Source: Dictyoglomus thermophilum H-6-12
GTDB taxonomy: Bacteria > Dictyoglomota > Dictyoglomia > Dictyoglomales > Dictyoglomaceae
Direction of reading: 5' to 3'
Assembly: GCF_000020965.1 (NCBI RefSeq)
Contig: NC_011297.1
Location: 186,001 to 250,000, forward strand
Length of the DNA stretch: 64,000 nt
Part shown: piece after piece, positions 42,338-61,215 of the stretch
Numbering within the stretch: position 1 is the stretch's first letter
Layout: each line of letters begins with the position of its first letter
Translations under genes and position numbers: made by a program
Notes under the pieces: generated by a model
The model's database searches: none
What the model saw: the letters and a program-made list of their open reading frames with translations, nothing else
What the model was told of the DNA's origin: nothing

Positions 42338-42972
42338 AAGCTCCTTTTATTTTTGAATTCCCTCATATTTAATAAGCGTATTCTACAATTTATAAGAATA
42401 TTGGCAGTGTATGTGTCTATGATGTCTTCTTTAAGTAAAAATTCAATGGCTTCTAAATAAGCCTTATGAGAAAAAGCATGTTTATACAAAAACTCTTTAA
42501 TTTTACTAGAACTATTAAAGATAGGATTTACCCAGCCAGAGACAACAAAAACAATTTTTGCGCTTTCTATTCCAGAGTTTCTATGAAATTTATTTAACTT
42601 TACCTGAAAAGATTTCACATCTTCTTCTTTTATTCCAGTAATAAACAACAAGTTTGAATCATATCTACTTAGTCCTATTAATTCTTTAAAATATTTATCA
42701 GCTTCAGGATCATGTTCTTCATATAAAACAGGAAAAATATGAATATTAGATTTAATTCCTTCACTGATGTAAAAATTCTTTATAATATAAACCCGTTCTT
42801 TAGGGGTCAACAAATATACCTTAGAAGGGTTTACAGACCAAACAAGAGTATGGAAAAAAGAATTTCCAAAAGCTTGAGCCAGATTCCATACTTGTTTAAG
42901 GACATCTCTATGTCCACGATGAAGTATATCATAACTGCCGGCTGTAACAATAACTATTCCTTTTTCCTTCAT
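42334..42972 (-). CDS. Cytidylyltransferase-like nucleotidyltransferase
   Basis: A 212-residue protein starting with 'GIVIVTAGSYDILHRGHRDV', in which GxxxxxHxGH is the nucleotide-binding motif of the cytidylyltransferase/NadD superfamily. The second motif near 'TGIKEEDV' replaces the usual ISSTxIR. The family activates sugar or alcohol phosphates with CTP or ATP. As the first gene of the glycosyltransferase operon it may prepare an activated sugar or glycerol unit. The 40-bp motif lies 59-98 bp upstream, back to back with a regulator-like gene. Confidence 0.78.
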   Translation of the reverse strand: MKEKGIVIVTAGSYDILHRGHRDVLKQVWNLAQAFGNSFFHTLVWSVNPSKVYLLTPKERVYIIKNFYISEGIKSNIHIFPVLYEEHDPEADKYFKELIGLSRYDSNLLFITGIKEEDVKSFQVKLNKFHRNSGIESAKIVFVVSGWVNPIFNSSSKIKEFLYKHAFSHKAYLEAIEFLLKEDIIDTYTANILINCRIRLLNMREFKNKRSL

Positions 42973-43021
42973 AAAGATTCTAAAAAATCTTCCTCAAATT
43001 CTTTCCACTTAAACTTTTAAT

Positions 43022-43185
43022 TTCTACTTTACCTTTTTGCATATGACTTTCAACTTTACCCTACTTAGGAACGCTGATGAAATCTTTATTTTAATAGGGC
43101 AAATTTTTTTATTTTTAAATTTTTTGAAGATAAAACGTTTTACTAAAAAATTGCTTAGATTAAAGAATGTGATATAATTACAAAA
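43022..43185 (+). promoter_or_regulatory. Intergenic control module M2: 40-bp motif and regulator promoter
   Basis: The 40-bp motif sits at 43031-43070, ahead of the minus-strand operon at 42972. TTGCTT (43151-43156) and TATAAT (43173-43178) are 16 bp apart and drive the plus-strand gene at 43208, leaving a leader of about 23 nt without a clear Shine-Dalgarno. The whole block is repeated at 55381-55530 and, partly, at 51901-52020 and 63480-63582. Confidence 0.8.
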
Positions 43186-43207
43186 AAATTTTTCCCAATT
43201 TTGAGAT

Positions 43208-44731
43208 ATGCCCAAGGAAATTTCTTATATCAATAGGATTATATCCGCGTATGGATCTTATGCGAAACCATTTTTAAACTGGATTTTGGAAACAGGCAGA
43301 ATTTCTTCAGCCTGGAAAACTTATTTTTTAGCATTGAAATTATATTGGAAAGGAGAATATTTTTTAGCTTTAAGTAAATTAGAAAAAGCCCTTAATAAGT
43401 GCAATAATAGTAAAACATTATATTATCTTGTTCTTACTCAAAAGCTTGCATTTTTATCAAGGGTAAATAGTAAAGAAGGAGTAGAGCTCTTTCACAAGTT
43501 AAAACAAGAATTCCCTTATATTCCATCCTATGTAAGAAATATTGCAGTCTCATCACTCCTTCATTACTATGCTACTATCTTCCCATCTAATCTCCCCAAG
43601 TTTCGTATTTGGAGCAATAGTTATCATTTAGACTCTTCCTCCCAGGTTTTTATATTCTTAGGTAAGGCAAGAGAAGAGATAAAAAAAGAAAATATTAGAA
43701 AAGCCATATTTTACTACGTTAAAGCTTTTAGAACATCCCTATCTATTCCCCATCCAACAGGAATTATCAATAGTTTAAACAACCTCTCTTGGAATCTTAA
43801 AGAAAGACATCCTAAATTTTCTCTATCATTAGCTAAAAAAGCTGTTTATTACTGTGCTTTATATAGGGAAGATCTATCTTATGATTTTGCTGTTCTGGAT
43901 ACTCTTTTTGAAGTACAGAGGATTAATAATGATCTTTCTATTTGTGAGACTTCTATGATTATTAAGCACTATTATAAATTTTTGTCAGATTCTTCTGGAA
44001 ATTACAATAAACAGCACTACAGAAAAACCTTTGAATCCTCTAAAAGATTTTGTTTTGATTTAGAACCTTCTTTCTATAAAAATAATGGAGAATTGAGAGA
44101 TTTAAATAAAGTTTCAAATATTAAACCTGATTTTAATAATCTCCCCCTTGAAGTATTAATTGAATTGAGAAGAATAAACATATTAAAAAACTTTCAGAGA
44201 ACCATAGAAAAATTAAATAATGTATCAAAGGACGCAAGAGAAAATTTAATTCTCTCAAGTTTTATGAGTCTTTGTGATAGAAAAAGTTTATTTCCTTCTA
44301 CTTATAAAAAGATTAAAAACATATTGGATTTCTCAGAGAATATTAAAAGACTCATTAATTTTGCGAAGAGGGATTTTGAGGTTATAAGATTTTTATCCTA
44401 TATCTCTAATGACCATCCTTTTTTTGAAGCAAGAATGGATTTAGCAAAAAAATTTTTGGAAACTCTACTCCCAGAGAAAAGAGAATTTTTCATAAGTTTT
44501 TACCTCTCTCTAAAGGAAAAAGAAAAAGAGCTTATAGATGCTTTTGTGAGGAATTATGTAAGATATGATAGAGATTGGCATATTAAAATACCTACTCCTG
44601 CAGAAATAGTTTCTTTTGTTAAAGGATTTCAGCTGAAGGAACTGCCTTCTTCTTTAGCTTATTTTTGCTTTGAGAGGAGAGAAAGAAGAAATTTCAATAA
44701 AATAATTAATGAAATGATGGTTAATGCTTAA
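43208..44731 (+). CDS. Regulator-like helical repeat protein, full-length copy of a three-copy family
   Basis: A 507-residue protein without signal peptide or membrane span. Residues 30-120 read like TPR helices ('ALKLYWKGEYFLALSKLEKA', 'TLYYLVLTQKLAFLSRVNSK'), and more helical pairs follow to about 250. The C-terminal part 'IPTPAEIVSFVKGFQLKELP' is not a recognised DNA-binding motif. The first ~120 residues and the upstream 150 bp are almost identical to copies at 55560 and 63613. TPR architecture, divergent placement and linkage to peptide operons recall peptide-sensing RRNPP regulators, but no HTH is visible and the assignment is only a proposal. Confidence 0.7.
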   Translation: MPKEISYINRIISAYGSYAKPFLNWILETGRISSAWKTYFLALKLYWKGEYFLALSKLEKALNKCNNSKTLYYLVLTQKLAFLSRVNSKEGVELFHKLKQEFPYIPSYVRNIAVSSLLHYYATIFPSNLPKFRIWSNSYHLDSSSQVFIFLGKAREEIKKENIRKAIFYYVKAFRTSLSIPHPTGIINSLNNLSWNLKERHPKFSLSLAKKAVYYCALYREDLSYDFAVLDTLFEVQRINNDLSICETSMIIKHYYKFLSDSSGNYNKQHYRKTFESSKRFCFDLEPSFYKNNGELRDLNKVSNIKPDFNNLPLEVLIELRRINILKNFQRTIEKLNNVSKDARENLILSSFMSLCDRKSLFPSTYKKIKNILDFSENIKRLINFAKRDFEVIRFLSYISNDHPFFEARMDLAKKFLETLLPEKREFFISFYLSLKEKEKELIDAFVRNYVRYDRDWHIKIPTPAEIVSFVKGFQLKELPSSLAYFCFERRERRNFNKIINEMMVNA

Positions 44732-44740
44732 CACTACAGT

Positions 44741-45185: not shown

Positions 45186-45196
45186 TCATAAAAATA

Positions 45197-46912
45197 TTAT
45201 ATCATTGTTACTATATTTACGATTTTTCCATTCTCCAAGTAAACAATTTTATTTATAAAGGTTTCCTTAGGTAAATCCTTAGGAGTAATGATAACACAAG
45301 TTGTATCTTTCATCTTTTCTTTTATAAATTTAAATATCTTTTCTTCTACCCTTGTATCTATTTCAGAGGTTGCCTCGTCAAGTATGAGAATTTCAGGATT
45401 TTTTAATATAGCTCTAAGAAAAGCAATCACCTTCTTTTGTCCTCCCGATATTCTTACTCCTCTTTCTCCTATTATGGTATCAAGCCCATTTGGGAATCCT
45501 TCCATAAAAAAGTGATATAAATCTATCTCTTTTAGGAGATTATTTATCTCATTGTCAGAGATGTTGGGATTTGCATAGGAAATGTTATTTCTAACAGTAT
45601 CATTAAATAAGAAGATGTTTTGGGAAACAATTCCAATTTTTTCTCTTAAAGAGGAAAGCTTTATTTTATCTAAGTCGATACCGTCTATAAAAATTTTTCC
45701 TTCCAAAGGTTTATACATTCTAAGAAGCAGTCGGATTAGAGTAGTTTTTCCACTACCATTAGGACCTACTATTGCGACTTTTTCTCCCACTTTTATATCT
45801 AAGTTTATATTTTCTAAAACTTTATTTTTTCCATCATAGGAAAAGGAAACATTAACAAAAGATATTCCTTCTCTTAACTTATTAATTGTTATTTCGCCTT
45901 CTTCTTCTTTTGCCATCTCCATAATTTCAGTAACTCTTTTTAAAGAGACAAGAGCTGGATAAATAGTAAAATTAAAAGTAGCTAAACTTTGAATAGGACC
46001 ATAAAGTCTCTGCACATAGGATGTGAAAGCAATATAACTTCCTAAAGTAAAGGATCCATTTATTATATCTAAACCTCCTCTCCATAGGATAAGAAGTCCG
46101 CCCAAAGCAATAAGAGTGATATTAAATTCTGAGAATAATGTAAAGATTATACTTTGTAGAATGTTCTTTCTGCTAATTTCTTTAAATCCCTTTTCAATTT
46201 CCATAGCCTCTCTTTCCTCTGTAGCAAAAAGTTTAATTACTTCTGCTCCTGAAATTCTTTCTTCTACTTTCCCCATTAATTTAGCAGAGGATTCTAAAAG
46301 ATCTTTTGTGATATATGTAATTCTTTGAGACAAGGGTTTAAGACCTAGATAATAAAAGGGTAAAATTGAAAGAGCGATTAAGGTTAATTTCCAATTGAGA
46401 TAAAAGAGCATAAAAAGAGCAAAAATAAATTCTCCTAATCTTATTAATTGGCTTACTAATGTAGAAGAGAAGAAGAATCCTAATCCTTCTATTTCTCCAA
46501 TTCTGCTTAAAAGATAGCCTGTTTGAGCTTGATCGTAAAAAGAGAAAGGTAGTTTCAAAATCTTTTTAAATAACTCACTTTTTAAAGTTGCTATAATTTC
46601 TTGGTTTAATTTTGTAAAAAGATATTGGGTAATACCAGAGAATACACTTCTTGCTATGTGAAGAATTGCCATAATAATGACTAAATTAACAAGTAATTTT
46701 GCATTTTTACTTCCTAATAAAACCTTATCGATTACTATCTTTGTTAAATAGGGAACAGGAATTGTAATAAAGGACGAGATTATAAGAAATATACTTGCAA
46801 TTATAAAATTACCAAGATGAATTTTAAAATAAGGTAACAATATTTTAAGTTTTGAGAAGGAAATATCTTCTTTCTTTGGAATAAGGAAATCAAAATCCTC
46901 TTTCATTTTCAT
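45197..46912 (-). CDS. ABC exporter with fused membrane and ATPase domains
   Basis: A 571-residue half-transporter. Six membrane helices (residues about 30-320) precede an ATPase with Walker A 'VAIVGPNGSGKTTLIRLLLR', signature 'ISGGQKKVIAFLRAIL' and Walker B 'ILILDEATSEID'. It resembles MsbA-type and peptide exporters. No N-terminal C39 peptidase domain is present, so it does not itself cut a leader peptide. The switch region has 'TTCVIITPKDLPKE' where a His is expected, which may impair or alter hydrolysis. Last gene of cluster A; a candidate exporter for the Cys-rich peptides. Confidence 0.92.
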   Translation of the reverse strand: MKMKEDFDFLIPKKEDISFSKLKILLPYFKIHLGNFIIASIFLIISSFITIPVPYLTKIVIDKVLLGSKNAKLLVNLVIIMAILHIARSVFSGITQYLFTKLNQEIIATLKSELFKKILKLPFSFYDQAQTGYLLSRIGEIEGLGFFFSSTLVSQLIRLGEFIFALFMLFYLNWKLTLIALSILPFYYLGLKPLSQRITYITKDLLESSAKLMGKVEERISGAEVIKLFATEEREAMEIEKGFKEISRKNILQSIIFTLFSEFNITLIALGGLLILWRGGLDIINGSFTLGSYIAFTSYVQRLYGPIQSLATFNFTIYPALVSLKRVTEIMEMAKEEEGEITINKLREGISFVNVSFSYDGKNKVLENINLDIKVGEKVAIVGPNGSGKTTLIRLLLRMYKPLEGKIFIDGIDLDKIKLSSLREKIGIVSQNIFLFNDTVRNNISYANPNISDNEINNLLKEIDLYHFFMEGFPNGLDTIIGERGVRISGGQKKVIAFLRAILKNPEILILDEATSEIDTRVEEKIFKFIKEKMKDTTCVIITPKDLPKETFINKIVYLENGKIVNIVTMI

Positions 46913-47661
46913 GAACTCCCTTTTTGTAGAATTTTTTCTATACTAGTATTTTTAACAAGATAATAGGAAATAATAAACAATACTAAACCTGCAAGTATGA
47001 AAATTAAGTTTGGTTTTAACAAGAAGTGTATTCTTTCTAATTTATCTGGCTCCATAAAATAAAAGAAAGCGATGAAAAGTATTGAATAAGCATAAGTTAT
47101 CAAAATTCTCGTGGGAATCAGTTTATCTACAAATAACAAGGACAAACATCCAATAAAGCTTAATATTCCAAAGTTGATTATGGGAGCTACAACAATAATA
47201 TGAAAGACATTCTGTAAAGTAATTCTAACAGATACACCCAACAATATTAAATAAAGGAGAAGCCCAAAGAGAGAAGACAGACTCATCACATATATGGCTA
47301 GTGATACATAAATGACCTTTCCCAGCCAAAAATCTACAAGAGTAAGAGGAGTAGAAAGAAGAGGTATTATGTTCTTAGTATAATATTCTGTGATAAATAA
47401 CAAAGTTATATGAAATGTTCCAACAAATATCATTGTACCTATAGGAATGTAATTTATCAATTTACTAACGAAGTTGCTGAAAAATATCTTTGTATTGGGC
47501 GAGTTTGCCATCTCTCTTACTATGTGAGGAATTCTAAATAGATTATCCTCCCCCTTTACTATAGTTGTGTTGAAGACGAACAAAAAGAAAATAGAGTAGA
47601 ATAGAGAGATGTAAAGAAATTTTCTGAATTGCTTCATCTCTTTATATAAAATTCCTAACAT
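46909..47661 (-). CDS. ABC-2 type permease of cluster A
   Basis: A 250-residue membrane protein with six hydrophobic segments. 'PLLSTPLTLVDFWLGKVIYV' is the coupling segment typical of ABC-2 permeases. It pairs with the separate ATPase at 47662, one base away, and overlaps the next exporter gene by four bases. In bacteriocin loci such pairs often give self-immunity by pumping the product out. Confidence 0.85.
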   Translation of the reverse strand: MLGILYKEMKQFRKFLYISLFYSIFFLFVFNTTIVKGEDNLFRIPHIVREMANSPNTKIFFSNFVSKLINYIPIGTMIFVGTFHITLLFITEYYTKNIIPLLSTPLTLVDFWLGKVIYVSLAIYVMSLSSLFGLLLYLILLGVSVRITLQNVFHIIVVAPIINFGILSFIGCLSLLFVDKLIPTRILITYAYSILFIAFFYFMEPDKLERIHFLLKPNLIFILAGLVLFIISYYLVKNTSIEKILQKGSS

Positions 47662-48591
47662 TTATTTTTCCTCCTTTACTATAGATAGGTATATATCTTC
47701 AAGAGAGTTTTTAATCTCATTGATTTTCCATACTTTTATGTTATTTTGTGTAAACCATAATAATAGATCTGGTAATTTGTCTTTATTTTCCAAAGAAACA
47801 ATTATCTTACCTTCCTCTTCTTTTACATTTTGAACAAAAGGCAGGTTTCTTAATGGTACTTCTACTTCTTGCAAGGGTTTATCTATGGAGATTTCTACTT
47901 CTTTTCTATCAAAGGCTCTTTGCAATTCAGAAAGAGTCCCACAGGCTACAATTTCTCCTTTATTTATTATTCCAATTCTAGTACATATTTGGGATATTTC
48001 GTAGAGATTATGGGACGTTATAAAAATAGTAACATTTTTATTATTAGCAAGATTGACTAAGAAATCTCTTATAAATTTTTGTCCTTCCACATCTAAACCT
48101 GTAGTTGGCTCATCTAAAAGAAGAAGTTCTGGCTCATGAAGAAGTGATCTTGCTAAGCATAATCTCTGCCTCATACCTGTTGAATAATTTTTAACCTTTT
48201 CTTTTTCTCTACCAGAAAGTCCTACAAGTTCTATTAATTCTTTTATTCTATTTTCTCTTATCTTTTTGGGCACTTTGTATAAAATAGAGTAAAATTCTAA
48301 GTTTTCATATCCAGTGAGATTTTCATATAACCCTCTTTCTTCAAGCATGAAACCTATTCTTCCTTTAATCTTATCCAATTCACTAATGTCGTAGCCAAAT
48401 ACTTTTACTTCTCCGTCATTGGGTTTTAACAGTCCAAGAAGTATTCTTATAGTGGTAGTTTTTCCAGCACCATTAGGACCTATATACCCAAAAATCTCTC
48501 CTTTTTTAACCTGAAAACTCGCTTTGTTCAAAGCCAAAGTTTTTTCGTATTTCTTTACCACATTATTAAAGGAAATGACAAAATCTCCCAA
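47662..48591 (-). CDS. ABC transporter ATPase of cluster A
   Basis: A 309-residue ATPase with Walker A '[20 protein letters not shown]', signature 'YSTGMRQRLCLARSLL', Walker B 'LLLLDEPTTGLD' and switch His in 'ITSHN'. The C-terminal 90 residues form the extension seen in NatA/CcmA drug and bacteriocin-immunity ATPases. It partners the permease at 46909. It follows the interrupted maturase by four bases, so it depends on reinitiation or readthrough upstream. Confidence 0.93.
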   Translation of the reverse strand: MGDFVISFNNVVKKYEKTLALNKASFQVKKGEIFGYIGPNGAGKTTTIRILLGLLKPNDGEVKVFGYDISELDKIKGRIGFMLEERGLYENLTGYENLEFYSILYKVPKKIRENRIKELIELVGLSGREKEKVKNYSTGMRQRLCLARSLLHEPELLLLDEPTTGLDVEGQKFIRDFLVNLANNKNVTIFITSHNLYEISQICTRIGIINKGEIVACGTLSELQRAFDRKEVEISIDKPLQEVEVPLRNLPFVQNVKEEEGKIIVSLENKDKLPDLLLWFTQNNIKVWKINEIKNSLEDIYLSIVKEEK

Positions 48592-48595: not shown

Positions 48596-49849
48596 TCACC
48601 CCCATATTCCTTCCAATGGATTATACTTACAAAATTTCACTTCACCTAGGCTACTCCCTTTTAGTAATTCGAAGGCTCTACAATCTAGACAAGCATATCT
48701 AAATTCGCAATACTTACATGGATAAAGCTTCTCTTTGGATAGTTCGTAAAATCTGTCAATTGTTCCCTTTATGAAAAGATCTGGTATTTTACTTTCTTTA
48801 ACGCTTCCCAATACTAAATTTCTAAGCATTGGGCAAAGGAGATATTTACCTTCAAGGGTAATTGTTATTTTCCCTTTAAGACAAGGATTGTAAATTTTTC
48901 GTAATTCAAAGTCAGAGACAAATACTGGTAGAATGTCATTTTTTTCAATGTAGTGATCAAACATATAGCTTTCAGAAATATTTTGTTTATTAATATTTAG
49001 GTCTGTAGTCATGTTTTCTATTATTATATTTTTTTGTTTATAAGATTCTAAATCGCAAAATCGAAAATTGATATAAAATTGAATATCTTCTTCTTTTAGT
49101 TTTCTTAAATTATTTAAAAGAAAAGCAAAACTCTTTTGAGAGATAGTATTATAGAGGGATTATGGCAAAAAAATGCTAATGATAGGTTTTAAATTGTAAT
49201 GCTTTATTAAATTTCTACTTTTTTTCGTAGCTATATTTATTCCATGAGTTAGAATAAAAATATTTTCAAAATTGAATTTGTCTAAATTTCTACAAAAATT
49301 GACTAAAGATGTGATTTCTAAAAATGGGTCACCTCCTAAAATTACTAATGTCTTACATCTCAAATTATTTACTTCCTGTAGTATTTCTAACCATAATTCT
49401 TCACTAATTCTTTTTTTGTAGCTTATTTGAGTACATCCCAAACAACCGAATTTTATAGGATAATTTTTACAAAAATAACAAGAAAAATCACATGTACTAC
49501 TCACTTCTATAAAGGCAATATCTAAATTAGGAGCAGGTTTGTTAAATAGATGTTTCTGCATAAAAAGAGGAAAGCCTAAACTTAATTTATCTATATAAGC
49601 TTTATTTTCATATTTTCTTATTATTCCGTTTTGCTTTAGAACTCTCACAAATTCCATAATTTCGGTCTTAGATAGTCCATTTATTATATTTAGTATCTCC
49701 TCAAAGGGCATTTTGTCTAAAAGTTCTATAATTCTTGTTCTTTCTTCACAAAGATGAATAATTTCCCCCTGAAGGGTATTATATAATGCACTTTTTTTTC
49801 TTCCTTTAACAAAATAGATTTCTGGAGATAGTCTATAATATGTGCTCAT
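48596..49849 (-). pseudogene. Radical SAM/SPASM peptide maturase 2 of cluster A, one in-frame TAA
   Basis: Two frames, 49849-49160 and 49012-48596, are in the same phase. The 49 codons between them are open except for a single TAA at 49162-49160 ('SIFLP stop SLYNTISQKS'). Read through it, a 418-residue protein results: an N-terminal PqqD-like peptide-binding domain (residues 1-85), the radical SAM site C120-xxx-C124-xx-C127, and a C-terminal SPASM cysteine set ('CKYCEFRYACLDC'). A TAA from CAA is the simplest lesion. It may be a recent pseudogene, a sequencing error, or programmed readthrough. Confidence 0.8.
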
Positions 49850-51245
49850 AATTCCTCCTCTTGTTTTTGGTATTTAAATGAAACAGTTTTTCTTCGAATG
49901 AAGGATCACTTTCTAATAGAGAGTATAATTCAGAGAAATCTGACAAAGTTTGTTTTATTAATAATTCGCATATATTCTCTGGATCTTTTGAAAATCTATT
50001 ATTAGTCATAAAAGTAGCAAAACACATAGTGCATAAACGTGATATTGGGCATTTTTTGCATTCATAGGTTATTTCTTCTTTGTATTTATTAAGTACCTGA
50101 ATTATTTTCTTATAATTTAGGCCTTCTTCTATATTACCAATTGGAAAAGAATAGTTTACTTTCTCACAAATGTGAAAATTCCCGTCGGTGTCGATAAAAA
50201 TTTTTACACCTGGGACACAACTTCCATGTAAGAAATTAAAAACACCTTTTGATTTTGTTATTTTTTCCCGAATTAAGAGAGTTCTATAATTTGATCCAAA
50301 AAAAATATCTAAAAACGCACTTGTTTTTTTCTTCTTTTTAATTTGTTCAAAATAAACATCCTTCAATTTTTGAATTTGACATTGATGGTTTAAAAAGTCC
50401 TCTTTGGTAAAAATTTGGTAATATTTAGAAAAGTAAGGAGCTGCGGCATTTACTCTTACTAAAGGAGGTAAATTTTTATTCGTACTAAAGAATTCTTCTA
50501 GTTTAAATAAGTCTGTTTTCCAGTCATAACAACAAATTAATGATATATTTTCATAAAAATATCGTGGATAATGAAATCGTATGTATTCAAGATTTTGTAG
50601 TATTTTATCAAATGTTTTTTGGCCTTTTATTGTTGTTCTATTTCTATCATGATTTTCTTTATATCCATCTAGGCTTACAGCAATATAAAAATCATTATCG
50701 ATTAAAAAATCTACGATATCCTTAGTCAACAAATACCCATTAGTAGTTATATTATATAAAACATTAATATTAGGGAACTTTTTTCTGATATAAGTAACTA
50801 TGCTTTTTATTAAATCAAAATTTAGTAAGGGCTCTCCCCCATAAAAAGTAACACAAGGTTTCCTATATGGATTATACTTTAATACTTGAAAAATATTATT
50901 GAAATAATAATCTACAGCCTTTTTGGCAATATCAAAATTCATATTTTTTCTATTAAAAATTGGAGCATAATCGTACATGCCTGAATAATAATAACAGTAT
51001 TTACATCTAAAATTACAATTTTCAGTAACACTTAAAATAAGTTGAGTAAAACCCTCATATAAAAGAAAATGTTGTATGTCTACTTCTCTTAATACAGGTT
51101 TTTCTTTCATATTATTATGTTTAAGCAAATTTATTATTTCTTTTAGTTTATCAATATCTTTTTTGGGAAATGTCAATCCTGTATCATCATTATAAATATA
51201 AGTAGTATTTTCTGTAGAAAACTCTATTATTTTAATATTATCCAA
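49833..51245 (-). CDS. Radical SAM/SPASM peptide maturase 1 of cluster A
   Basis: A 470-residue protein with the [4Fe-4S]-SAM motif C77-xxx-C81-xx-C84 ('CNFRCKYCYYY'), 'FYGGEPLLNFDLI' and a SPASM domain whose cysteines include 'CEK' and 'CKKCPISRLCTMCFA' near residues 370-420. SPASM maturases bind auxiliary clusters and introduce thioether or other cross-links into precursor peptides. The N-terminal 60 residues probably bind the leader. The end overlaps maturase 2 by 17 bases. Its likely substrates are the two Cys-rich peptides directly upstream. Confidence 0.9.
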   Translation of the reverse strand: MDNIKIIEFSTENTTYIYNDDTGLTFPKKDIDKLKEIINLLKHNNMKEKPVLREVDIQHFLLYEGFTQLILSVTENCNFRCKYCYYYSGMYDYAPIFNRKNMNFDIAKKAVDYYFNNIFQVLKYNPYRKPCVTFYGGEPLLNFDLIKSIVTYIRKKFPNINVLYNITTNGYLLTKDIVDFLIDNDFYIAVSLDGYKENHDRNRTTIKGQKTFDKILQNLEYIRFHYPRYFYENISLICCYDWKTDLFKLEEFFSTNKNLPPLVRVNAAAPYFSKYYQIFTKEDFLNHQCQIQKLKDVYFEQIKKKKKTSAFLDIFFGSNYRTLLIREKITKSKGVFNFLHGSCVPGVKIFIDTDGNFHICEKVNYSFPIGNIEEGLNYKKIIQVLNKYKEEITYECKKCPISRLCTMCFATFMTNNRFSKDPENICELLIKQTLSDFSELYSLLESDPSFEEKLFHLNTKNKRRNYEHIL

Positions 51246-51269: not shown

Positions 51270-51297
51270 AAGGGGGCGTCCTTAAAGACGCCCCCTC
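51270..51297 (-). terminator. Hairpin between precursor peptide and maturase, cluster A
   Basis: Stem GGGGGCGTC / GACGCCCCC without a long T-run, just after the stop of the second precursor. It probably acts as a partial terminator or RNA-stabilising hairpin, giving more precursor than enzyme. Cluster B has an equivalent at 54948. Confidence 0.75.
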
Positions 51298-51488: not shown

Positions 51489-51516
51489 ATCCACACCTCC
51501 TATATTTTAAAATTTG

Positions 51517-52874: not shown

Positions 52875-53582
52875 TTAACCTCCCCCTATTACATCAAGAA
52901 ATAATTCCTCAAGATCTCTATATTTTCCAAGAATTTCACTCTTCATATCATCTACTAATATCTTTCCCTCTTTTATAAGAATCACTCTATGAGCAAGTTT
53001 TTCTAGCTCTCCCAAATCATGAGAGGTCAATATTACGCTTTTTCCTTTCTGATTTAAATCAAGAATTAATTCTCTCATATTTTTTCGAGAAATAGGATCA
53101 AGCCCACTCATAGGTTCATCCAAAACTAAGAGATCTGGATTTTTCAAAAGAGCTAAAAGAAAACTTAGTTTTCTTTTTGTCCCTTTAGAATAAGTATAGA
53201 CCTTTTGAGACAGAAAATCTAAAATTCCTAACTTCTCTGCATAAACTTCAATATCATTTTTTTCTACTCCTCTTCCAAGAAGTTCAGCATATATCTTTAT
53301 ATTCTCCCATCCTGAATACTTTTCCCATAAAAGATCTTTCTCAAGCATTACAGAGATGATTAAATTATTAACCTTTTCTATATTCCCAGAAGTAACATTG
53401 AATATCCCTGTTAAACAGCGAAGAATAGTAGTCTTTCCTGCTCCATTTGGACCCAAAAGTGCTGTAATCTCTCCTCTTACTATATCAAAGGAAATATTTT
53501 TTAAAATTTTCTTTCCATTTATTTCTTTTGAAAGATTTCTAATAGAAATGAGTTTTTCAGAAATTCTTTTCTCCATACACAT
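52875..53582 (-). CDS. ABC transporter ATPase of cluster B
   Basis: A 235-residue ATPase with Walker A '[20 protein letters not shown]', signature 'YSKGTKRKLSFLLALL', Walker B 'LLVLDEPMSGLD' and switch His in 'LTSHDLGE'. It partners the permease at 52180. ATG 53582 or 53576 is possible; both lie inside the end of the maturase gene, an overlap of about 60 bases that couples their translation. Confidence 0.92.
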   Translation of the reverse strand: MCMEKRISEKLISIRNLSKEINGKKILKNISFDIVRGEITALLGPNGAGKTTILRCLTGIFNVTSGNIEKVNNLIISVMLEKDLLWEKYSGWENIKIYAELLGRGVEKNDIEVYAEKLGILDFLSQKVYTYSKGTKRKLSFLLALLKNPDLLVLDEPMSGLDPISRKNMRELILDLNQKGKSVILTSHDLGELEKLAHRVILIKEGKILVDDMKSEILGKYRDLEELFLDVIGGG

Positions 53583-54916
53583 TTGTCTTCTCCTTCCCCA
53601 TATGCTTTCATTAAACCTCTAACTAGACAATTATTGCAAAACCACAAATTTTCGCATTCTTTACATATTCTTTTATTTGGTGCAGGAATTTGAGAAATAA
53701 TTTCGAAATACATCGAATAAGTTTGTAAAAAATTCTTTAAAGAGTTCCCAGAAAACTTTAAATTGCCTATACTCATATCTGACATTTGGCAAATTTTAAC
53801 ATCAAGATTAGGAGAGAGAGTTATGCCAGATCTTCCAACACCACAATTTATCGAATCTGACATAATTTCTTCTTCAATTACTGATATAAAATTCTTACCA
53901 TATTTTTCGATTAAATTTTCTATATTTTTTTCAAACATAGCAAAGGCTTTATCGTCAAGAGATATTATTAAATCATTATTAGACTTAGCTCGCCCAATAG
54001 GAGCAATAGGACCAAAAGCGACTGCGGTAGCTCCAAGTTTATAAGCAATTTCAGCAACATCTGCCATTTGCTCAACATTAAGTGAAGTTACATTACATAC
54101 GACTCTCACAACTATTCCTAAATCTGATAACTTTTTTATGCTGTCAATCGCTGAATAGTAAGCTTTTTCATTACCTGTAAACCAACGTACATACTCTGGA
54201 GAACTTCCGTGAAGATCTATTTGTACAACTACTCTTTCTCTATTATAGTATAAAAGTTGACATATCTCCTCAGAGAGATTACTCCCATTAGTAAGTAAGC
54301 CAATTAATTCGAAATTATAAGTAAACAATTTCTTGAGAAATTCTTCTATATTTGAATAAACAGTTGGTTCTCCTCCTGTCAATTCTATTTCTCGTATTCC
54401 TAATTTATATGCTTCTTCAAGTATAGAAAGAATAACATCTGTTTTCATTTCAGATAACATATATATAGAAGAGTTATTGTAACAATGTTTACATTGATAA
54501 TTACATCTGTAAGTTAATTCTAAGACTAAGCCAAATGGAACTAAATAATCCCAACTTCCTGTTTTTGTAAAACAAGAATTTTTTATTTCATATTTATTTT
54601 TGCATTCAATCACAGAAATACCGTATCTATTATAAAGACGTTCAAAAAATATTGATATATTTCTAAAAACATTTTCCTCTGTGTCATTATATTTTCTACA
54701 GAAATAATTTACTATCTCAGAAAGACTTAAAGGTTCATACATCTTTTCAATAATTTCACCAGCAACTTTATTTAATTTGATTGCAGCCTGTTGTTTAAGA
54801 CGACCTCTCTTAGGAAGTTTTTTAGAATCAAAACATAAAAAAGCATACTGAGGTTGTAAATGCAACCTTAGATTATCAACGTCTAGTTTTAGATAAACAT
54901 TACTATCCAGGTTCAT
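53519..54916 (-). CDS. Radical SAM/SPASM peptide maturase of cluster B (PqqD-PqqE-like)
   Basis: A 465-residue protein. Residues about 45-105 look like a PqqD-type peptide-binding domain ('AIKLNKVAGEIIEKMYEPLS'). The radical SAM site is C138-xxx-C142-xx-C145 ('CNYQCKHCYNN'), then 'ELTGGEPTVYSNIEEF'. The SPASM domain has cysteines in 'CGVGRSG', 'CQMSD' and 'CKECENLWFCNNCLVRG'. Intact and full length. It probably modifies the Cys-rich peptide encoded just upstream, behind a hairpin. Similarity to PqqE suggests a carbon-centred cross-link, but the chemistry is unknown. Confidence 0.9.
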   Translation of the reverse strand: MNLDSNVYLKLDVDNLRLHLQPQYAFLCFDSKKLPKRGRLKQQAAIKLNKVAGEIIEKMYEPLSLSEIVNYFCRKYNDTEENVFRNISIFFERLYNRYGISVIECKNKYEIKNSCFTKTGSWDYLVPFGLVLELTYRCNYQCKHCYNNSSIYMLSEMKTDVILSILEEAYKLGIREIELTGGEPTVYSNIEEFLKKLFTYNFELIGLLTNGSNLSEEICQLLYYNRERVVVQIDLHGSSPEYVRWFTGNEKAYYSAIDSIKKLSDLGIVVRVVCNVTSLNVEQMADVAEIAYKLGATAVAFGPIAPIGRAKSNNDLIISLDDKAFAMFEKNIENLIEKYGKNFISVIEEEIMSDSINCGVGRSGITLSPNLDVKICQMSDMSIGNLKFSGNSLKNFLQTYSMYFEIISQIPAPNKRICKECENLWFCNNCLVRGLMKAYGEGEDKCVWRKEFLKNSFLLEIFQKK

Positions 54917-54945: not shown

Positions 54946-54976
54946 TTTAGGTGCCGCTTTTTCAGCGGCACCTAAA
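54946..54976 (-). terminator. Hairpin between precursor peptide and maturase, cluster B
   Basis: Stem TAGGTGCCGC / GCGGCACCTA with a seven-base loop and no long T-run, nine bases after the precursor stop. Same position and probable function as the hairpin at 51270 in cluster A. Confidence 0.75.
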
Positions 54977-54984: not shown

Positions 54985-55122
54985 CTATCTTAACCCTACA
55001 AATCCTACAAAAGTGGCAATCCATGCAGCTTGTACTTTGCCAGGACACCACCTACAAAATCCACATCCAGTACACCCAGCACACCAATTTTTTTCTACCC
55101 CAATAATTTGAGGTTCAGGCAT
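54985..55122 (-). CDS. Cys-rich precursor peptide B (five Cys, spacing three)
   Basis: A 45-residue peptide with cysteines at 14, 17, 20, 23 and 26, that is CxxCxxCxxCxxC ('WCAGCTGCGFCRWCPG'). The tail 'QAAWIATFVGFVGLR' is hydrophobic. GGAGGTGAAGGAA precedes the ATG. It is placed like peptides A1 and A2 in cluster A, between the small membrane peptide and the maturase, but with a Cys period of three instead of four. It is a probable RiPP precursor. A ferredoxin-like metal-binding peptide is the alternative. Confidence 0.75.
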   Translation of the reverse strand: MPEPQIIGVEKNWCAGCTGCGFCRWCPGKVQAAWIATFVGFVGLR

Positions 55123-55143: not shown

Positions 55144-55340
55144 TTATAAATTAAAAATCTCTAAAAATCCAATCAAGGGTCCAGAGATTATTAAAACCAA
55201 GGGAATCTTCATAGTATCTTGGATTCTTTTTTCTTGTTATCATCTTCTAAAGGGTCTGCATATATAACTTTAATAGAAAGTATTAACATGAAAATTATTA
55301 AAAGTATTGAAAGAAATATATTTTTATCCTTCTTTTTCAT
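55144..55340 (-). CDS. Small signal-peptide-like protein (43 aa) and coupled 22-aa frame, head of cluster B
   Basis: ATG 55340 has GGGAGG nine bases upstream. It encodes 43 residues (stop 55209): a basic start, a hydrophobic stretch of about 20 residues, 'IYADPLEDDNKKKESKIL', then TGA. An ATG overlapping that stop (55212) opens a second 22-residue hydrophobic frame 'MKIPLVLIISGPLIGFLEIF'. Comparison with 61107-60881 suggests the two were once one two-span protein of about 95 residues. As it stands the first frame looks like a secreted peptide of the pheromone type. The function is unknown. Confidence 0.5.
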
Positions 55341-55374: not shown

Positions 55375-55557
55375 CACTTTACCTTTTTGCATATGACTTT
55401 CAACTTTACCCTACTTGGGAATGTTGATGAAATCTTAATTTTAATGGGGCAAAATTTTTGTATTTTTAAGTTTTTTTGAAGATAAAGCGTTTTGGTAGTA
55501 AATTGCTTAGATTAAAGGATATGATATAATTAACAAAAAGTTTTTCCCAATTTTGAG
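55375..55557 (+). promoter_or_regulatory. Control module M4: 40-bp motif and regulator promoter
   Basis: 40-bp motif at 55381-55420, TTGCTT (55503-55508) and TATAAT (55525-55530) 16 bp apart, then the same 23-nt leader before the ATG at 55560. Nearly identical to module M2 and to the copy at 63480-63612. Confidence 0.8.
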
Positions 55558-55559
55558 AT

Positions 55560-55970
55560 ATGCCCAAGGAAATTTCTTATATCAATAAGATCATATCCAC
55601 ATATGGATCTTATGCGAAACCGTTTTTAAACTGGATTTTAGAAACAGGCAAAATTTCTTCAACTTGGAAAGCTTATTTTTGGGCATTGAAATTATATTGG
55701 AAAGGGGAATACCTTTTAGCTTTAAGTAAATTAGAAAAAGCCCTTAATAAGTGTAATAATAGTAAAACATTATATTATCTTGTTCTTACGCAAAAACTTG
55801 CATTCTTATTAAGAGTAAATAGTAAAGAAGGGGTAGAGCTCTTTCACAAATTAAAACGAGAATTCCCTTATATTCCATCTTACGTAAGGAATATTACATC
55901 TTCAACTCTTATTAATTACTACAATTCGTTTCTTTCTTCTAATTCTTCAAAGTTTCGTATTTGGACATAA
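55560..55970 (+). pseudogene. Regulator-like protein, truncated copy
   Basis: A 136-codon frame matching the first 140 residues of the 43208 protein and almost identical to the copy at 63613. It ends 'KFRIWT' and then a stop, exactly where similarity to 43208 ends ('KFRIWSNS'). The following DNA carries fragments of unrelated genes, so the 3' two thirds were lost by recombination. The short product could still fold as a pair or two of TPR helices. Confidence 0.7.
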
Positions 55971-56062
55971 AATGCAAAATCTTGATTTTTGATCAATTTT
56001 ACTAACTGAGAAAGTATGCTGACTACACCACTCTAACTCTAAAAAACCTTCACATTAATAAA

Positions 56063-56335
56063 TCAATAAAATTTTTCAAGGATATATACGCTTTTAAAGG
56101 TCTTCAAAGAATAAATACCTAAAATAACTATAAGAATCATAAGATATATAAATGACCAAAATATACTAATTATGGAATTAAAACCTAAAGTAGATCTTAC
56201 CAAATTTAAACAATGAGTTATAGGATTTATAAGTAATACCGAAGTATATATAGGATGTAAATTATCTGTGGAGTAATATACGGGTGCAAAGAGTAGAAAG
56301 AACCACGAAAGCAAAGGAATTATACCTTTAAAAGA
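56063..56335 (-). pseudogene. C-terminal fragment of ABC-2 permease
   Basis: The minus strand reads 'GIIPLLSWFFLLFAPVYYS' and continues to a stop at 56063. 'PVYYSTDNLHPIYTSVLLIN' is the region before the last helix in ABC-2 permeases. There is no start, and the fragment is joined head-on to a sugar-isomerase fragment at about 56336. Confidence 0.6.
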
Positions 56336-56542: not shown

Positions 56543-56887
56543 ATGGATAAAACAATTAATTATTTAAATGAAGTCGAAAAAGCCATACTTAAAGAGCTGA
56601 AAGTGAAGCTTTTAGAACTTTTGGGTTCTAATTTTATATCTATGGTTCTTTTTGGATCAAAAGCGCGCGGTGATTATGATGAGGATTCTGATATAGATGT
56701 GGTAATAATTGTGAATTATTTAGATAAAGACATAAAGGATAAAATTCTTTTAAAGGTTACGGAGTTAGAGACTAAATATGGCATAGTTTTGTCGACCTTA
56801 ATACTTTCTAAGGAGGATTTTGAGTATCTGAAACAAAGGGAAAGAAGGATTGCTCTTGATATTGAAAGAGAAGGAATTGAAATATGA
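56543..56887 (+). CDS. MNT-family nucleotidyltransferase, antitoxin-like
   Basis: A 114-residue minimal nucleotidyltransferase with 'FGSKARGDYDEDSDIDVVII' near residue 38, the complete GSxxxGxxxxxSDxD motif. In paired MNT-HEPN systems the enzyme modifies or neutralises the HEPN partner. The stop overlaps the HEPN gene start by four bases. Intact, unlike the pair at 23294-23992. It lies between broken gene ends. Confidence 0.88.
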   Translation: MDKTINYLNEVEKAILKELKVKLLELLGSNFISMVLFGSKARGDYDEDSDIDVVIIVNYLDKDIKDKILLKVTELETKYGIVLSTLILSKEDFEYLKQRERRIALDIEREGIEI

Positions 56888-57288
56888 AAGAGGAGAATAT
56901 AAGGATAAGTGTGAAAGAAGAGATAGAGAGAGCTAAAGAGGCTTATAAATCCGCAAATATTTTGTTTGAAAATGATCTTATAAAGGATGCCATATCACGT
57001 TTGTATTATTATGCTTTACATATGGTAAGAGCCCTTCTTTTTACAAGGGGATTTGAACCTAAAAGTCACGAGGGGGCTTTAAGACTTTTGAGTTTGTATT
57101 TTGTTAAAGAAGGAATATTTGAGCCAGAGATTGCTCATATCTTCTCAAGACTTATGAAGTATAGAGAAGAGGCAGATTATAATCCTTTCTATGTATTTTC
57201 TAAAGAAGATTTTTTAAACTATAGGAAAGAAGCTGAAATTTTAGCAAGTGAGATTGAAAAATATCTCGCAAAAGTTGGTTTGTTATAG
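56884..57288 (+). CDS. HEPN-domain protein, partner of MNT
   Basis: A 134-residue HEPN protein: 'ISVKEEIERAKEAYKSANIL', 'DAISRLYYYALHMVRALLFT', then 'SHEGALRLL' and 'MKYREEADYNPF', typical of the HEPN proteins found behind minimal nucleotidyltransferases. It lacks a clear RxxxxH motif; 'RLYYYALH' and 'REEADY' are present instead, so RNase activity is uncertain. Translationally coupled to the MNT gene. Confidence 0.87.
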   Translation: MKEENIRISVKEEIERAKEAYKSANILFENDLIKDAISRLYYYALHMVRALLFTRGFEPKSHEGALRLLSLYFVKEGIFEPEIAHIFSRLMKYREEADYNPFYVFSKEDFLNYRKEAEILASEIEKYLAKVGLL

Positions 57289-57333: not shown

Positions 57334-58113
57334 TTAGTAAAGATTAATATTTCCAATATGCCTTGCTTTACGTTCTAAAAATTTAATTATAAATTGGCCT
57401 AAAAGGAAATACATTATAAGTAATCCGATTTCAGAGACTATGTAGGGTATTGCCATAGATATTTTATCCTGTATTATTAAGTTGAGACCTTCCATAAGAT
57501 GGGATAGAGGAAAAATCTGAGATAGATATTTCAAAAATGTTGGAAATCTAGAGATGGGTATATTAACACCGCTTAAAAGAATCATTAAAATCTCCATTCC
57601 GTTAAGAAGCATAATTTATATCTCTGGTTAATAGTCCCAAACTTGCTATAAGACTTCCAAAAAGGCTCACTGATATAACTCCTATTATTATCAATAAGAA
57701 AATAAATACAAATTGATATGGGGGATAGTATATTTGAATCCTGTAAGGATAATAGTAAGCCCAATTAATACTGTAATGAAAGCATTGATAATATGGAAAA
57801 ATATTTTTTGAGCGATGATTCTTAAACGAGATCGAGGGCTTACAATAAAATACATCAAAGTACCTTGTTGCCTTTCGGAGAAATAGATGATGCCTATTCC
57901 TTTTAAAGCACTTATTGAGGAGAGAAGGATGGCGTTACCTAAAATAAAAACTGCAATATTAGTTTTTTCTTTATATCCATACAATATTAAGAAGGAATAA
58001 AAAAGAAACCTAAATATAGGATTAATTACCTTTTCAATCATATAAGCCTTTGGATTTAGCCACAATGAGACTCCTTTGTAAGCTAACCAAGAATTTCTCA
58101 AAAAAATCCACAC
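57334..58113 (-). pseudogene. ABC-2 permease of cluster C, frameshifted
   Basis: Frames 58113-57691 ('WLAYKGVSLWLNPKAYMIEK') and 57690-57334 ('LEILMILLSGVNIPISRFPT' region) give one ABC-2 permease only if a frame change near 57690 is allowed. The first ends in a premature stop after 'INLYLFSY'. It would be the second permease of a pair with 58125. Confidence 0.75.
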
Positions 58114-58124
58114 TCTTTTGAGCT

Positions 58125-58886
58125 TTAAATACCTCCAAAGGTTGCATCTTTCCTATTTTTTCTCTCTATGTATTTAAAGAGAAAATGCCCTACAAGTAGA
58201 TATAGTACACTTAAGATAATAGAATAGTAAAATTCTTTTTCAATACTATTACATTTTTGCACAGAATTTTTTAGGAATGACACACTCCACCTAATGGGAA
58301 GGATATTAGAAATATATTGGACCCATGAAGGAAGAATTTCCACAGGAAATAGAATTCCAGATATAAAGTATATTGGATATAGAATAGAGGATATCAGGGC
58401 AAAAGCATTTCTAGATAATGTAAATAAAGTTGCAGTTAAGAAAGAAATTGCTAAAAGGGAGAGTAAGAGGGAAAATAATGAGAGCAAAAATAAGTCAATA
58501 CGAGAGATTATTAAAGGGATTCTTAAAATTAATATGGAATAAATTATAACTATTGCAAAAGAGATAAAACCTATTAAGGTATTAGCTAAAATTTTGGAAA
58601 AGATTATAAATTCAAATCTTATCGGGGTAACTGATACAGCCTCAAGAGTTCCTGATAGTCTTTCCCTCTCAATCTCGATAGCGGATGAATAACAAGCAAG
58701 TCCCCACAAAGAGGCAATTCCACTTCCCCAGATTATATAGACCATCTCTTTGCCTGAATATATAAAGTATAAGAGAGTGGAAAAGAATATGGGCATAATA
58801 AAGATAGAAAATTTATATAAATTTCTCGAGAAAGATATTTTGTAGTGGATTTTAAATATAGAGAACAAAGCCCTAAAATAGGTCAT
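58125..58886 (-). CDS. ABC-2 type permease of cluster C
   Basis: A 253-residue membrane protein with six hydrophobic segments. 'SAIEIERERLSGTLEAVSVT' is the coupling helix and 'YPIYFISGILFPVEILPSWV' the typical segment before the last helix. The frame is intact, but the cognate ATPase and second permease are both broken, so it is probably no longer functional. Confidence 0.82.
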   Translation of the reverse strand: MTYFRALFSIFKIHYKISFSRNLYKFSIFIMPIFFSTLLYFIYSGKEMVYIIWGSGIASLWGLACYSSAIEIERERLSGTLEAVSVTPIRFEFIIFSKILANTLIGFISFAIVIIYSILILRIPLIISRIDLFLLSLFSLLLSLLAISFLTATLFTLSRNAFALISSILYPIYFISGILFPVEILPSWVQYISNILPIRWSVSFLKNSVQKCNSIEKEFYYSIILSVLYLLVGHFLFKYIERKNRKDATFGGI

Positions 58887-58892
58887 TTCAGA

Positions 58893-59862
58893 CTACTCTC
58901 CTAACAATTTTAAGTATACATCCTCTAAAGATATCTTTTTTACAATAAGGTCATGGATTGGAATTCCCTTCAAGTTTGTGAAAATATTAGATATAGCTGT
59001 AGATTCTGGAGTAATAACTAGGATAACTTCTAAGAAGTTTTCATTTTCATGTATTTTTAAATTTTTGACATATTTTAATTTTTCAAGTTCATTTAATTTT
59101 GCCTTAAAATGTTTATCAATTAATAGCTTAATCTCAAAACTTTCCGAATATTTACTCTTTAAAGAGGCTGGCGTGTCTATGGTTATAATTTCTTCACTTT
59201 TAAGAAAAGCAATTCTATCACAAAGTTCTTCTACTTCCTGCATGTAATGACTCGTAAAAATAATGGTTTTTTCATATTTTTTAATCTCTTAATTATATTT
59301 CTGATCTCTCTTGCTCCTATAGGATCAAGACCAATAGTAGGCTCATCTAAAAAGATGATTTCAGGGTCGTTAATAAGTCCTCTTGCAATCTGTAATTTTT
59401 GTTTCATTCCTTTTGAATATGTTTCTACCTTATCTTTTAATCTATTACTGGGTAAGCCAACAATTTCAAGTAATTCCTTTATTTTTTCTTTTCTGTTTTT
59501 ATAGGGTACACCGTATAGATCAGCGAAGTACTCCAAATTTTCAATAGCGGACAACCTCGTATAAAGATTTCTTTCTCCTCCCATAACAAAATTTATACTC
59601 TTTCTAACCTTCTCAGGTTCTTTATGTTATGTCGTAGCCTAAAATTTTTACCTCACCACTGGTAGGTAAAAGTAAGGTACTAAGAATTTTTATAGTGGTA
59701 GTTTTTCCTGCCCCGTTAGGTCCTAAGATTCCAAAAATTTCTCCCTTATTTACTTGAAAGGATATTCCTTTGAGAGCAATTATTTTCTCTGGTTTCTTTT
59801 TAAAATCAAATATTCTTATTTTTATTAAGTATTTCCTATATAAATCCTTAACTTCTATTATT
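58893..59862 (-). pseudogene. ABC transporter ATPase of cluster C, two frameshifts and lost start
   Basis: Three frames make up one NatA-like ATPase. The first has Walker A '[20 protein letters not shown]' (near 59720), ending at 59620. The second (59584-59231) has 'YSKGMKQKLQIARGLI' and Walker B 'IIFLDEPTIGLD'. The third starts 'TSHYMQEVEELCDRIAFL' and ends at 58893. AAAAGGAG precedes codons TCA-ATA-ATA rather than an ATG, so the start is also lost. Confidence 0.85.
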
Positions 59863-59882
59863 GACTCCTTTTATGACCTCCC

Positions 59883-60874
59883 TCAACCAATAAGCTTCAA
59901 AGCATCATCAGCACTTTCTCCACAAAAAATGTTATAGATAAGATTATGAAACCCAATAATAGAAGCTCCTTTACTGTTTTGATGTCTCCCAACTAAATAA
60001 ACTCTTCCTATAATCTTTCCGTTCTCTATTATATGATATTCTTCCCATCTTTTTCGTTAGAATTAGAAAGTGAAAATTCTGCTCCTGGAATGATAAATAA
60101 AGGTGGATATTTATCAGGTGGAACCTCAATGGTATTTCCTAAAGATATCGCTTTCCCCGAATTAAATAATCCTTCAGTAATAATTACATATTCCTTCCAT
60201 TCCTTTTCGGAGAGAAAATTATATATCTCTATGAAATTTTCCTCTGCCTAACTCACAATGCATTTTTAGTTTTACTCCTCGGAATTTAAAATTTTTTTCC
60301 CTCAAAATTTTACACGCAGTTAAGAAATTTTTTAACCATGTCTCTCATTAGACTTATACCTAACGTATTATGGGACTCTATTTCTTCACGCGTGAGAACA
60401 GTTTTTTTAATGTGATTTACATATCTATATAAGCTTCCCGCATGATGTTCGTCACAAGATAGATGAATTTCTACATTTTCCTTTACTATTCCCAAGTTAA
60501 CTAAATTTTCTATGGTCTCTTTTACTCCTTCCTTTCCTTTTTTTAAAGAGATGACACCTTCTACCACTTGTAAAAATATATATTGGAATAGACCTTTCGA
60601 AATTTTTATAAGTCAAAATTTTAATAACTTCTGATAATCCTTTATATTCTAATGGTTCACCCCCAGTAAGTCTTATTTCTCTTAGTTTATTAAAATCTAC
60701 TTTCCTCCAAAAATTAATGTGCCATTCTGTAGGTAAGTAAAAACCTAAAAATTTATTATAAGACCAACAATGAGCACAACTCCCGCTACAAGAAGGATTT
60801 AGGAAATAAACAACTTCCCATCCATTAGGATGTATTTTTTTATTATCAAAGTCCAAATATAATGGAAGATTCAT
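59883..60874 (-). pseudogene. Radical SAM protein of cluster C, frameshifted
   Basis: ATG 60874 opens a frame with C29-xxx-C33-xx-C36 ('CSGSCAHCWSY') and 'IRLTGGEPLEYKGL', which breaks near 60560. It continues in other frames as 'VVEGVISLKKGKEGVKETI', 'MHCELGRG', 'YNFLSEKEWKEYVIITEGLF' and 'GRVYLVGRHQNSKGASIIGF' to 59883. About 330 residues in total with at least three frame changes. It lacks a clear SPASM Cys set, so it may belong to a different radical SAM type from clusters A and B. Confidence 0.75.
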
Positions 60875-60880
60875 TTTGTT

Positions 60881-61107
60881 TTAAGTATTATGATAGTATT
60901 CATACTTTTTCCATATAAGCCCTTCTATTACTTGTTTTGCAAAAATAGGTAGTATCCTTTTCCCTTCCTTTCTTCCTTTAAAATTAAAAATCTCCAAAAA
61001 TCCAATCAAGGCTCCGGAAATTATTAAAACCAAGTGAAACCTTTGTAGTATCTTGGATTCTTTTTCTTGTTATCACCTTCTAAAGGATCCTCATATGCAA
61101 TTCTCAT
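60881..61107 (-). pseudogene. Small membrane protein relic at head of cluster C
   Basis: ATG 61107 reads 'MRIAYEDPLEGDNKKKNPRY'. In the neighbouring frame the DNA goes on 'ILQRFHLVLIISGALIGFLE' and 'IFNFKGRKEGKRILPIFAKQ' to 60881, where it almost touches the radical SAM start. This is the longest version of the family seen at 55144 and 51733. The A-run after 'DNK' is one base shorter than in the 55340 copy. Confidence 0.5.
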
Positions 61108-61154
61108 AGTAAATATGAGCCTCACATATTCCTTTCACTTAAACCTTTTGTTTT

Positions 61155-61215
61155 CACTTTACCTTTTTGCATATGACTTTCAAATTTACCCTACTTGGGA
61201 ATGTTGTTAAGATCT
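61155..61215 (-). promoter_or_regulatory. Dispersed 40-bp motif, copy M5
   Basis: Motif core at 61161-61200, upstream of minus-strand cluster C. The DNA beyond it (61200-61350) resembles 34895-35070 rather than the regulator-bearing modules. Confidence 0.8.

Follow-up and report, generated by a model that had tools for sequence, protein, structure and literature searches.

The box promoter and the clusters behind it

The present work deals with a 64,000-nt stretch of the genome of Dictyoglomus thermophilum H-6-12 (contig NC_011297.1, positions 186,001 to 250,000 of the forward strand; referred to here as the window), in which several operons, among them gene clusters for ribosomally synthesized and post-translationally modified peptides (RiPPs), are headed by copies of one and the same promoter and lie next to genes for a regulator with tetratricopeptide repeats (TPR). 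An earlier inspection of this DNA without database searches (the sequence-only reading) had drawn attention to a repeated 40-bp motif and to a repeated module made of a regulator and RiPP genes. The repetition is genuine: four identical 28-nt copies, all with TTGAAAGTCATATGCAAAAAGGTAAAGT, are found on the minus strand at 43026-43053 (M4), 51896-51923 (M3), 55376-55403 (M2) and 61156-61183 (M1), the number expected from 100 shuffles of the window being 0. M3 and M2 head the clusters denoted here as A and B, M1 heads a decayed cluster C, and M4 lies ahead of an operon of glycosyltransferase and ABC genes. A fifth, outlying copy of the box on the same strand (TTGAAAGTCATATGCAAATAAGATAAAAT, 34849-34877) has a 17-nt spacer and was found with a 17-nt-spacer pattern, for which control matches genome-wide equalled the real ones in several genomes; for the 16-nt-spacer pattern, control matches were near zero. 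A weaker copy with one mismatch, at genome position 264048, precedes an MFS transporter gene.

The four copies in the window (TTGAAA-GTCATATGCAAAAAGG-TAAAGT) consist of a -35 element (TTGAAA), the box GTCATATG within a 16-nt spacer, and a -10 element (TAAAGT), and an equivalent arrangement occurs upstream of peptide genes in other genomes, for example as TTGAAAGTCATATGGAAACTGGTAAAAT, TTGACAGTCATATGATATAGTGTATAAT and TTGACAATCATATAAATACGGATATAAT. When 33 non-redundant copies were aligned, anchored on the 14-base core only and with the -10 element playing no part in their selection, TAAAAT stood out as a separate information peak. Because this unselected peak sits at a fixed distance of exactly 16 nt past the -35, the motif was recognized as a promoter, that is, a -35 and a -10 element with the conserved spacer box (A/G)(T/C)CATAT(G/A). 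Two other explanations of the motif were discarded. The ATG of the box opens a short frame (MQKGKVEIK...) that is lost in relatives, and a leader peptide was rejected since what is conserved is the -35/box/-10 layout and not the frame; a structured RNA was dismissed as well, as no Rfam match was obtained in 42000-64000.

Clusters A, B and C are all encoded on the minus strand. Cluster A carries two genes for Cys-rich precursors of 62 aa (51517-51705) and 63 aa (51303-51494), both of them HuaA-like, scoring 30.7 and 27.2 bits (2e-7 and 3e-6) against NF037972 (HuaA_fam_RiPP) and therefore missing its curated cut-off of 35 bits. A hairpin (51272-51295; about -24 kcal/mol with its flanks) separates them from an intact radical SAM maturase of 470 aa (49833-51245), whose best family is CcpM (1e-75, below the equivalog cut-off), and this is followed by a second, radical SAM/SPASM maturase (48596-49849), which forms one frame with a single in-frame TAA at 49160-49162, an ABC ATPase (47662-48591), an ABC-2-type permease-like protein with no Pfam match (46909-47661), and an ABC exporter combining membrane and ATPase parts (45197-46912). 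Cluster B comprises a Cys-rich precursor of 45 aa (54985-55122), a hairpin (54946-54976), again of about -24 kcal/mol with flanks, an intact AlbA-like radical SAM maturase with an N-terminal PqqD-like domain (53519-54916), an ABC ATPase (52875-53582) and an ABC permease-like protein with no Pfam match (52180-52872). For its maturase AlbA is the best model (2e-39), and its 135 bits miss the equivalog cut-off of 850 bits. None of the precursors of clusters A and B matched NF033413 (TM1316). Hence the order of precursors, hairpin, maturases and ABC genes that the sequence-only reading had set out holds in A and B, with the second maturase of A broken by a nonsense codon, and its description of cluster C as decayed was equally correct: the radical SAM gene there is left as frame-shifted remnants (60310-60874) and the ABC transporter genes are broken (57334-59866). 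At such pseudogene sites, sequencing errors in the deposited genome are possible. Several of the clusters in this bacterium probably make cross-linked, bacteriocin-like peptides.

A fourth RiPP cluster was found solely by searching the genome with the box. An orphan exact copy at genome position 1787080, 1.55 Mb away, heads an intact-looking cluster at about 1781000-1787100 (L079:12236-17108), which encodes a precursor of 66 aa with 9 Cys (MPYCSACAACAACAGCRPNSACTTCQGCGGCVISPAPDFEV...), a hairpin, two radical SAM/SPASM proteins and ABC genes. One of the two maturases is AlbA-like (1e-64, below the curated cut-off), and the tail of the precursor (PAPDFEVAITGIA) is one that we take to be reminiscent of the subtilosin tail.

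A receptor-like family and its divergent peptide

The intact TPR regulator of the window, a receptor-like protein of 507 aa belonging to a lineage without a central helix-turn-helix (HTH), is encoded on the plus strand at 43208-44731, behind a predicted strong sigma70-like promoter of its own (TTGCTT-N16-TATAAT, 43151-43178, plus strand) and back to back with M4, exactly as had been proposed. A truncated and decayed copy with internal stops adjoins cluster B (55560-56210, plus strand), and a further intact regulator of 503 aa, 83% identical to the first, starts at 63613 on the plus strand and continues past the window end at 64000, the promoter divergent to it being destroyed. No copy is present beside cluster A, in agreement with the earlier statement that the regulator is missing at M3. 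The protein of the window matched no Pfam or NCBIfam family above threshold, including any Rgg model. Homologues are carried by Dictyoglomus-like genomes and, in a second phylum, by 60 of 103 genomes, often in several copies; we infer this phylum to be Thermotogota, and it includes genomes with the TM1316 peptide (NF033413). When 386 genomes representing 326 genera were searched with a profile, each other phylum being thinly sampled, no convincing member turned up outside these two groups. The family was recovered by genome search, a related-locus search with a single regulator as the query having given no match, and a phage- or plasmid-borne origin was discarded after no match was obtained in phage or plasmid collections.

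A confident AlphaFold2 model (pLDDT 91.7) predicts that residues 1-256 form TPR-like helical hairpins and that the C-terminal domain is helical. Most members of the family carry in the middle of the protein a Cro/C1-type HTH, on which HTH_26 and HTH_3 matches agree and which is placed by the model at about residues 289-349. This domain is absent from the regulator of the window, from its 83% identical paralogue and from a relative at locus L024, and, separately, from one clade of the second phylum. On an unrooted tree built without the HTH columns, the HTH state changes twice; the simplest reading of that tree is that the domain was probably lost twice, once in the lineage of the window.

The second component is a small peptide. 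In cluster B, a putative secreted pheromone precursor of 43 aa is encoded at 55209-55340 (minus strand), reading MKKKDKNIFLSILLIIFMLILSIKVIYA followed by DPLEDDNKKKESKIL, with a guessed cleavage site between the two. The sequence-only reading had assigned a small hydrophobic peptide to clusters A and B and, in decayed form, to C; it is intact only in B, and A and C hold only remnants of the gene, corresponding to the mature part (51804-51833 and 61060-61089, both on the minus strand). Across the family, a signal-bearing small open reading frame, defined by a basic N-terminus and a hydrophobic stretch and located 90-420 nt from the regulator start on the divergent strand, accompanies 39 of 59 regulators versus 45 of 565 other long open reading frames taken as controls from the same loci (odds ratio 22.5). 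The peptides are of about 45 aa, start with MKK, have a hydrophobic part closing in F/Y/L-A/G and a hydrophilic tail of 15-25 residues, and can be aligned between the two phyla. Their pooled ratio of non-synonymous to synonymous changes (pN/pS) is 0.39, which argues that they are translated and under selection; that of very recent paralogues within one genome is near 1. The peptide is present beside regulators without RiPP genes (L012, L025, L026, L027 and L039) and is missing from the RiPP cluster at L079, which has a box but no regulator, and for this reason it was considered to belong with the regulator. It thus looks like a signal rather than a component of the RiPP. A role as RiPP precursor had been considered and was abandoned, since most members are Cys-free and no precursor family matched. 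At the five loci just named, regulators bearing the HTH, together with the peptide, face HD-GYP (HD_5) and SBP_bac_3/GAF proteins, which hints at a link to cyclic-di-GMP signalling.

The third component, the box, follows the regulator. Of the 54 Thermotogota-type loci offering sufficient sequence for the test, 21 have the core with at most 2 mismatches on the strand that points away from the regulator and 0 have it on the opposite strand, dinucleotide shuffles giving an expectation of 0.4. Whole-genome scans with at most 1 mismatch detected the box pattern in 19 of 24 genomes carrying the regulator versus 1 of 22 without it (Fisher p 2e-7, although many loci come from related genera, so that p-values overstate independence).

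As to what the regulators face, the Pfam families encountered most often in the 93 proteins transcribed divergently from them were radical SAM (23) and ABC ATPase (21), so the regulator family does not live mostly away from such genes. A maturase lies upstream on the divergent strand of 16 of 43 regulators, the corresponding controls being 0 and 0 on the same strand and 2 on the opposite strand downstream. For 19 of these 43, a moderately sensitive search of the 4 kb upstream showed no maturase and no ABC gene, which indicates that RiPP operons are a main but not the sole target. The proposed tie between motif and RiPP genes must be restricted in the same manner: it is valid for A, B and C, but the operon behind M4 (35034-42972, minus strand), which encodes a nucleotidyltransferase-like protein, glycosyltransferases, a RIO-like kinase, an ABC ATPase and two permeases, has no radical SAM gene and is not a RiPP operon. 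Behind the outlying box lies the gene of a putative secreted protein of 204 aa and no known family (34202-34816, minus strand), so that the boxed units of this genome are clusters A, B and C, the M4 operon, this gene and the fourth RiPP cluster. The repeated module of regulator plus RiPP genes is supported both in this genome and across the second phylum.

Several additional features were observed. A shortened relative of the 204-aa protein is divergent to the L024 regulator, and another is found at L079:2174-2524. In two related genomes (L044:4000-7000 and L060:1-4000), the regulator-side promoter is followed by the gene of a 130-aa protein that has 16 Cys and a signal-like N-terminus and may represent a further type of secreted, Cys-rich product. 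Repeated pairs of nucleotidyltransferase/HEPN-like genes occur here and there among the modules (window 56543-57288; L011:2135-2979; L079:4695-5541 and 10323-11161) and may mark rearrangement points. Next to the second intact regulator lies the gene of a long protein built of SIQQTSDGGYIVAG-type tandem repeats (61460-63182, minus strand), whose frame is interrupted near 61850, and a type III CRISPR-Cas gene set (Cas10/Csm-like), named from translations alone, occupies 12284-19308.

A candidate peptide circuit and the competing explanations

Gene order, promoter anatomy, the conservation of the unit in two phyla, the co-occurrence of box, receptor and peptide, and the coding constraint on the peptide are the observations to be integrated. 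The interpretation that we favour, with moderate confidence, is that these genes represent a set of RiPP operons under the control of a peptide signal, resembling the RRNPP(A) systems (Rap, Rgg, NprR, PlcR, PrgX, AimR) but relying on receptors of another family, with their domains in another order. In this model, the TPR protein, expressed from its own promoter, would be a cytoplasmic receptor, and the divergent box promoter would drive an operon whose first gene encodes the small peptide with its Sec-type signal. The peptide would be exported by the Sec route, processed to a short pheromone from its C-terminus and taken up again to bind the TPR domain, upon which the receptor would alter transcription from the box promoter. 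We infer secretion, processing, import, binding, DNA contact and the sense of regulation; the latter would probably be activation, with the peptide feeding back positively on its own expression, as its gene comes first in the operon under its control. Further products of the operon would be a Cys-rich precursor, its radical SAM maturases (one or two) and an ABC exporter, and the hairpin after the precursor would allow a surplus of precursor. The module was duplicated in tandem in this genome, where 1 intact pheromone gene, 2 intact receptors and no fewer than five or six boxed promoters remain. With one pheromone gene and boxed promoters that include one 1.55 Mb off, a single signal would therefore govern dispersed operons.

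Several facts weigh against this interpretation. The structural comparison of the receptor with the PDB by Foldseek retrieved generic TPR proteins, with Rap as one among many, at TM values of at most 0.5 and none with E<0.001 (Rap-CSF 4gyo, TMt 0.50; Rap-Phr 6t46, TMt 0.36-0.39), and profile searches of PDB chains returned generic or designed TPR proteins, proteasome RPN6 and one HipB HTH, with weak E-values, and no RRNPP receptor. The main difficulty lies with the receptors of the window, which lack the HTH and yet face intact boxes, and the box is equally good beside receptors with and without this domain; in the HTH-less forms, either the conserved C-terminal domain would touch DNA or a partner would mediate the contact. 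The peptide is intact in only 1 of the 4 modules of the window (cluster B), and no peptide gene exists at M4, where the receptor stands without an intact neighbouring peptide. Moreover, the box was not seen in 5 of the 24 carrier genomes at the stringency used, the signal peptides were assigned with a crude rule based on hydrophobicity and not with SignalP, and the relatedness of the genera sampled, mentioned above, counts here as well.

Three other explanations were considered. It could be that the TPR/HTH protein does control the box promoter but senses nutrients, envelope stress or another protein, with the peptide acting as an immunity or export helper. Signal-bearing small peptides beside bacteriocin clusters can indeed be immunity proteins. 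A nutritional cue would also agree with what is reported for the TM1316 operon, which, by the title of the paper cited in PMC13157175, is induced in stationary phase and responds to nutrient levels. However, the accessory role is difficult to reconcile with the presence of the peptide at the five loci without a RiPP cluster, with its absence from the boxed but regulator-less cluster at L079, and with its constant place beside the regulator, after the box and ahead of the cargo, and this explanation was deemed unlikely. Quite unlikely, in our opinion, is that some other, unlinked factor (a regulator or a sigma factor) recognizes the box, while the TPR protein works through Rap-like protein-protein contacts. 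The two changes of HTH state, with boxes equally good next to HTH-less receptors, would fit such a scheme, and so would the situation of the box inside the promoter spacer, adjoining the -35. Nevertheless, the box was detected in just 1 of the 22 related genomes devoid of the TPR family, which would require the joint loss of its reader, and binding to DNA could be a function of the C-terminal domain, which all members retain.

The third explanation is that of ordinary duplicated sactipeptide-like clusters, in which the TPR gene and the upstream repeat are mere passengers of a local duplication. A tandem duplication is certainly evident in the window, where, besides the 83% identical receptors, the upstream blocks are near-identical. 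This possibility is contradicted by the conservation of the arrangement across phyla: many second-phylum genomes show the same order although their sequences have diverged, the box being conserved there to about 1 mismatch. In addition, the distant orphan box also heads a RiPP cluster. A passenger role was accordingly judged highly improbable.

Relation to known systems and implications

The likeness of the proposed peptide-controlled unit to RRNPP(A) systems lies in the combination of a TPR protein with an adjacent small gene for an exported-type propeptide, in the many paralogues per genome, in the coexistence of receptors with and without HTH in one family, and in the biosynthetic clusters that serve as targets. 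In contrast, no sequence match was found to any RRNPP chain in the PDB set, and while those receptors are ordered as an N-terminal HTH followed by the TPR, here the TPR comes first, followed by the central HTH and the C-terminal domain. The hosts are also different, Dictyoglomota and, presumably, Thermotogota, and the large RRNPP survey covered complete Firmicutes and viral genomes only (PMC10075063). The closest working analogue is the Rgg/SHP control of the RaS-RiPPs streptide, tryglysin and streptosactin in streptococci, in which the regulator and a short peptide gene are divergent and a radical SAM RiPP operon is the target (reviewed in PMC13361665). This arrangement is also seen here, but with another receptor family, a conserved box in the promoter spacer, and peptides that have a Sec-like signal and a hydrophilic mature part and are, in this respect, Phr-like.

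A link with a described locus is offered by TM1315-TM1319 of Thermotoga maritima, since the receptor family, a signal-bearing small open reading frame and TM1316 occur together in L046, L048 and L049, where the peptide matches NF033413 with 84.5 bits. TM1316 has been described as a RiPP peptide; in the open-access literature searched, subscription papers being outside the search, no description was found of the divergent TPR protein and the upstream peptide as a signalling pair, nor of any peptide-receptor system for these phyla. The suggestion that the window holds an undescribed RiPP class found no support in these comparisons: the precursors of cluster A are sub-threshold relatives of HuaA (thuricin Z/huazacin), the maturases of cluster B and of the fourth cluster score best against AlbA (subtilosin A), and the related Thermotoga loci contain TM1316. 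The likeness to sactipeptides comes from sequence scores that are all below curated cut-offs, and the thioether linkages are putative. The RiPP parts are related to known sactipeptide systems, and the novelty is in the control unit.

A survey from 2018 reported that Dictyoglomi had none of the quorum-sensing proteins sought and that no thermophile had a complete peptide two-component system (PMC6022435). We give about even credence to the broader notion that, outside Bacillota, two deep-branching thermophilic phyla possess a peptide quorum-sensing family of their own, in which TPR-HTH receptors, Phr-like peptides and a fixed box would control sactipeptide-like and other operons, with a repeated loss of the HTH that parallels Rap and with one pheromone for scattered operons. 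A unit of receptor, peptide and promoter kept in two phyla is, in any case, a concrete and testable candidate for peptide signalling in these organisms. The circuit would offer an explanation for the stationary-phase expression of TM1316, its promoter signature finds RiPP clusters unaided, as illustrated by the one found here, and the peptide may provide a handle for switching on such silent clusters.

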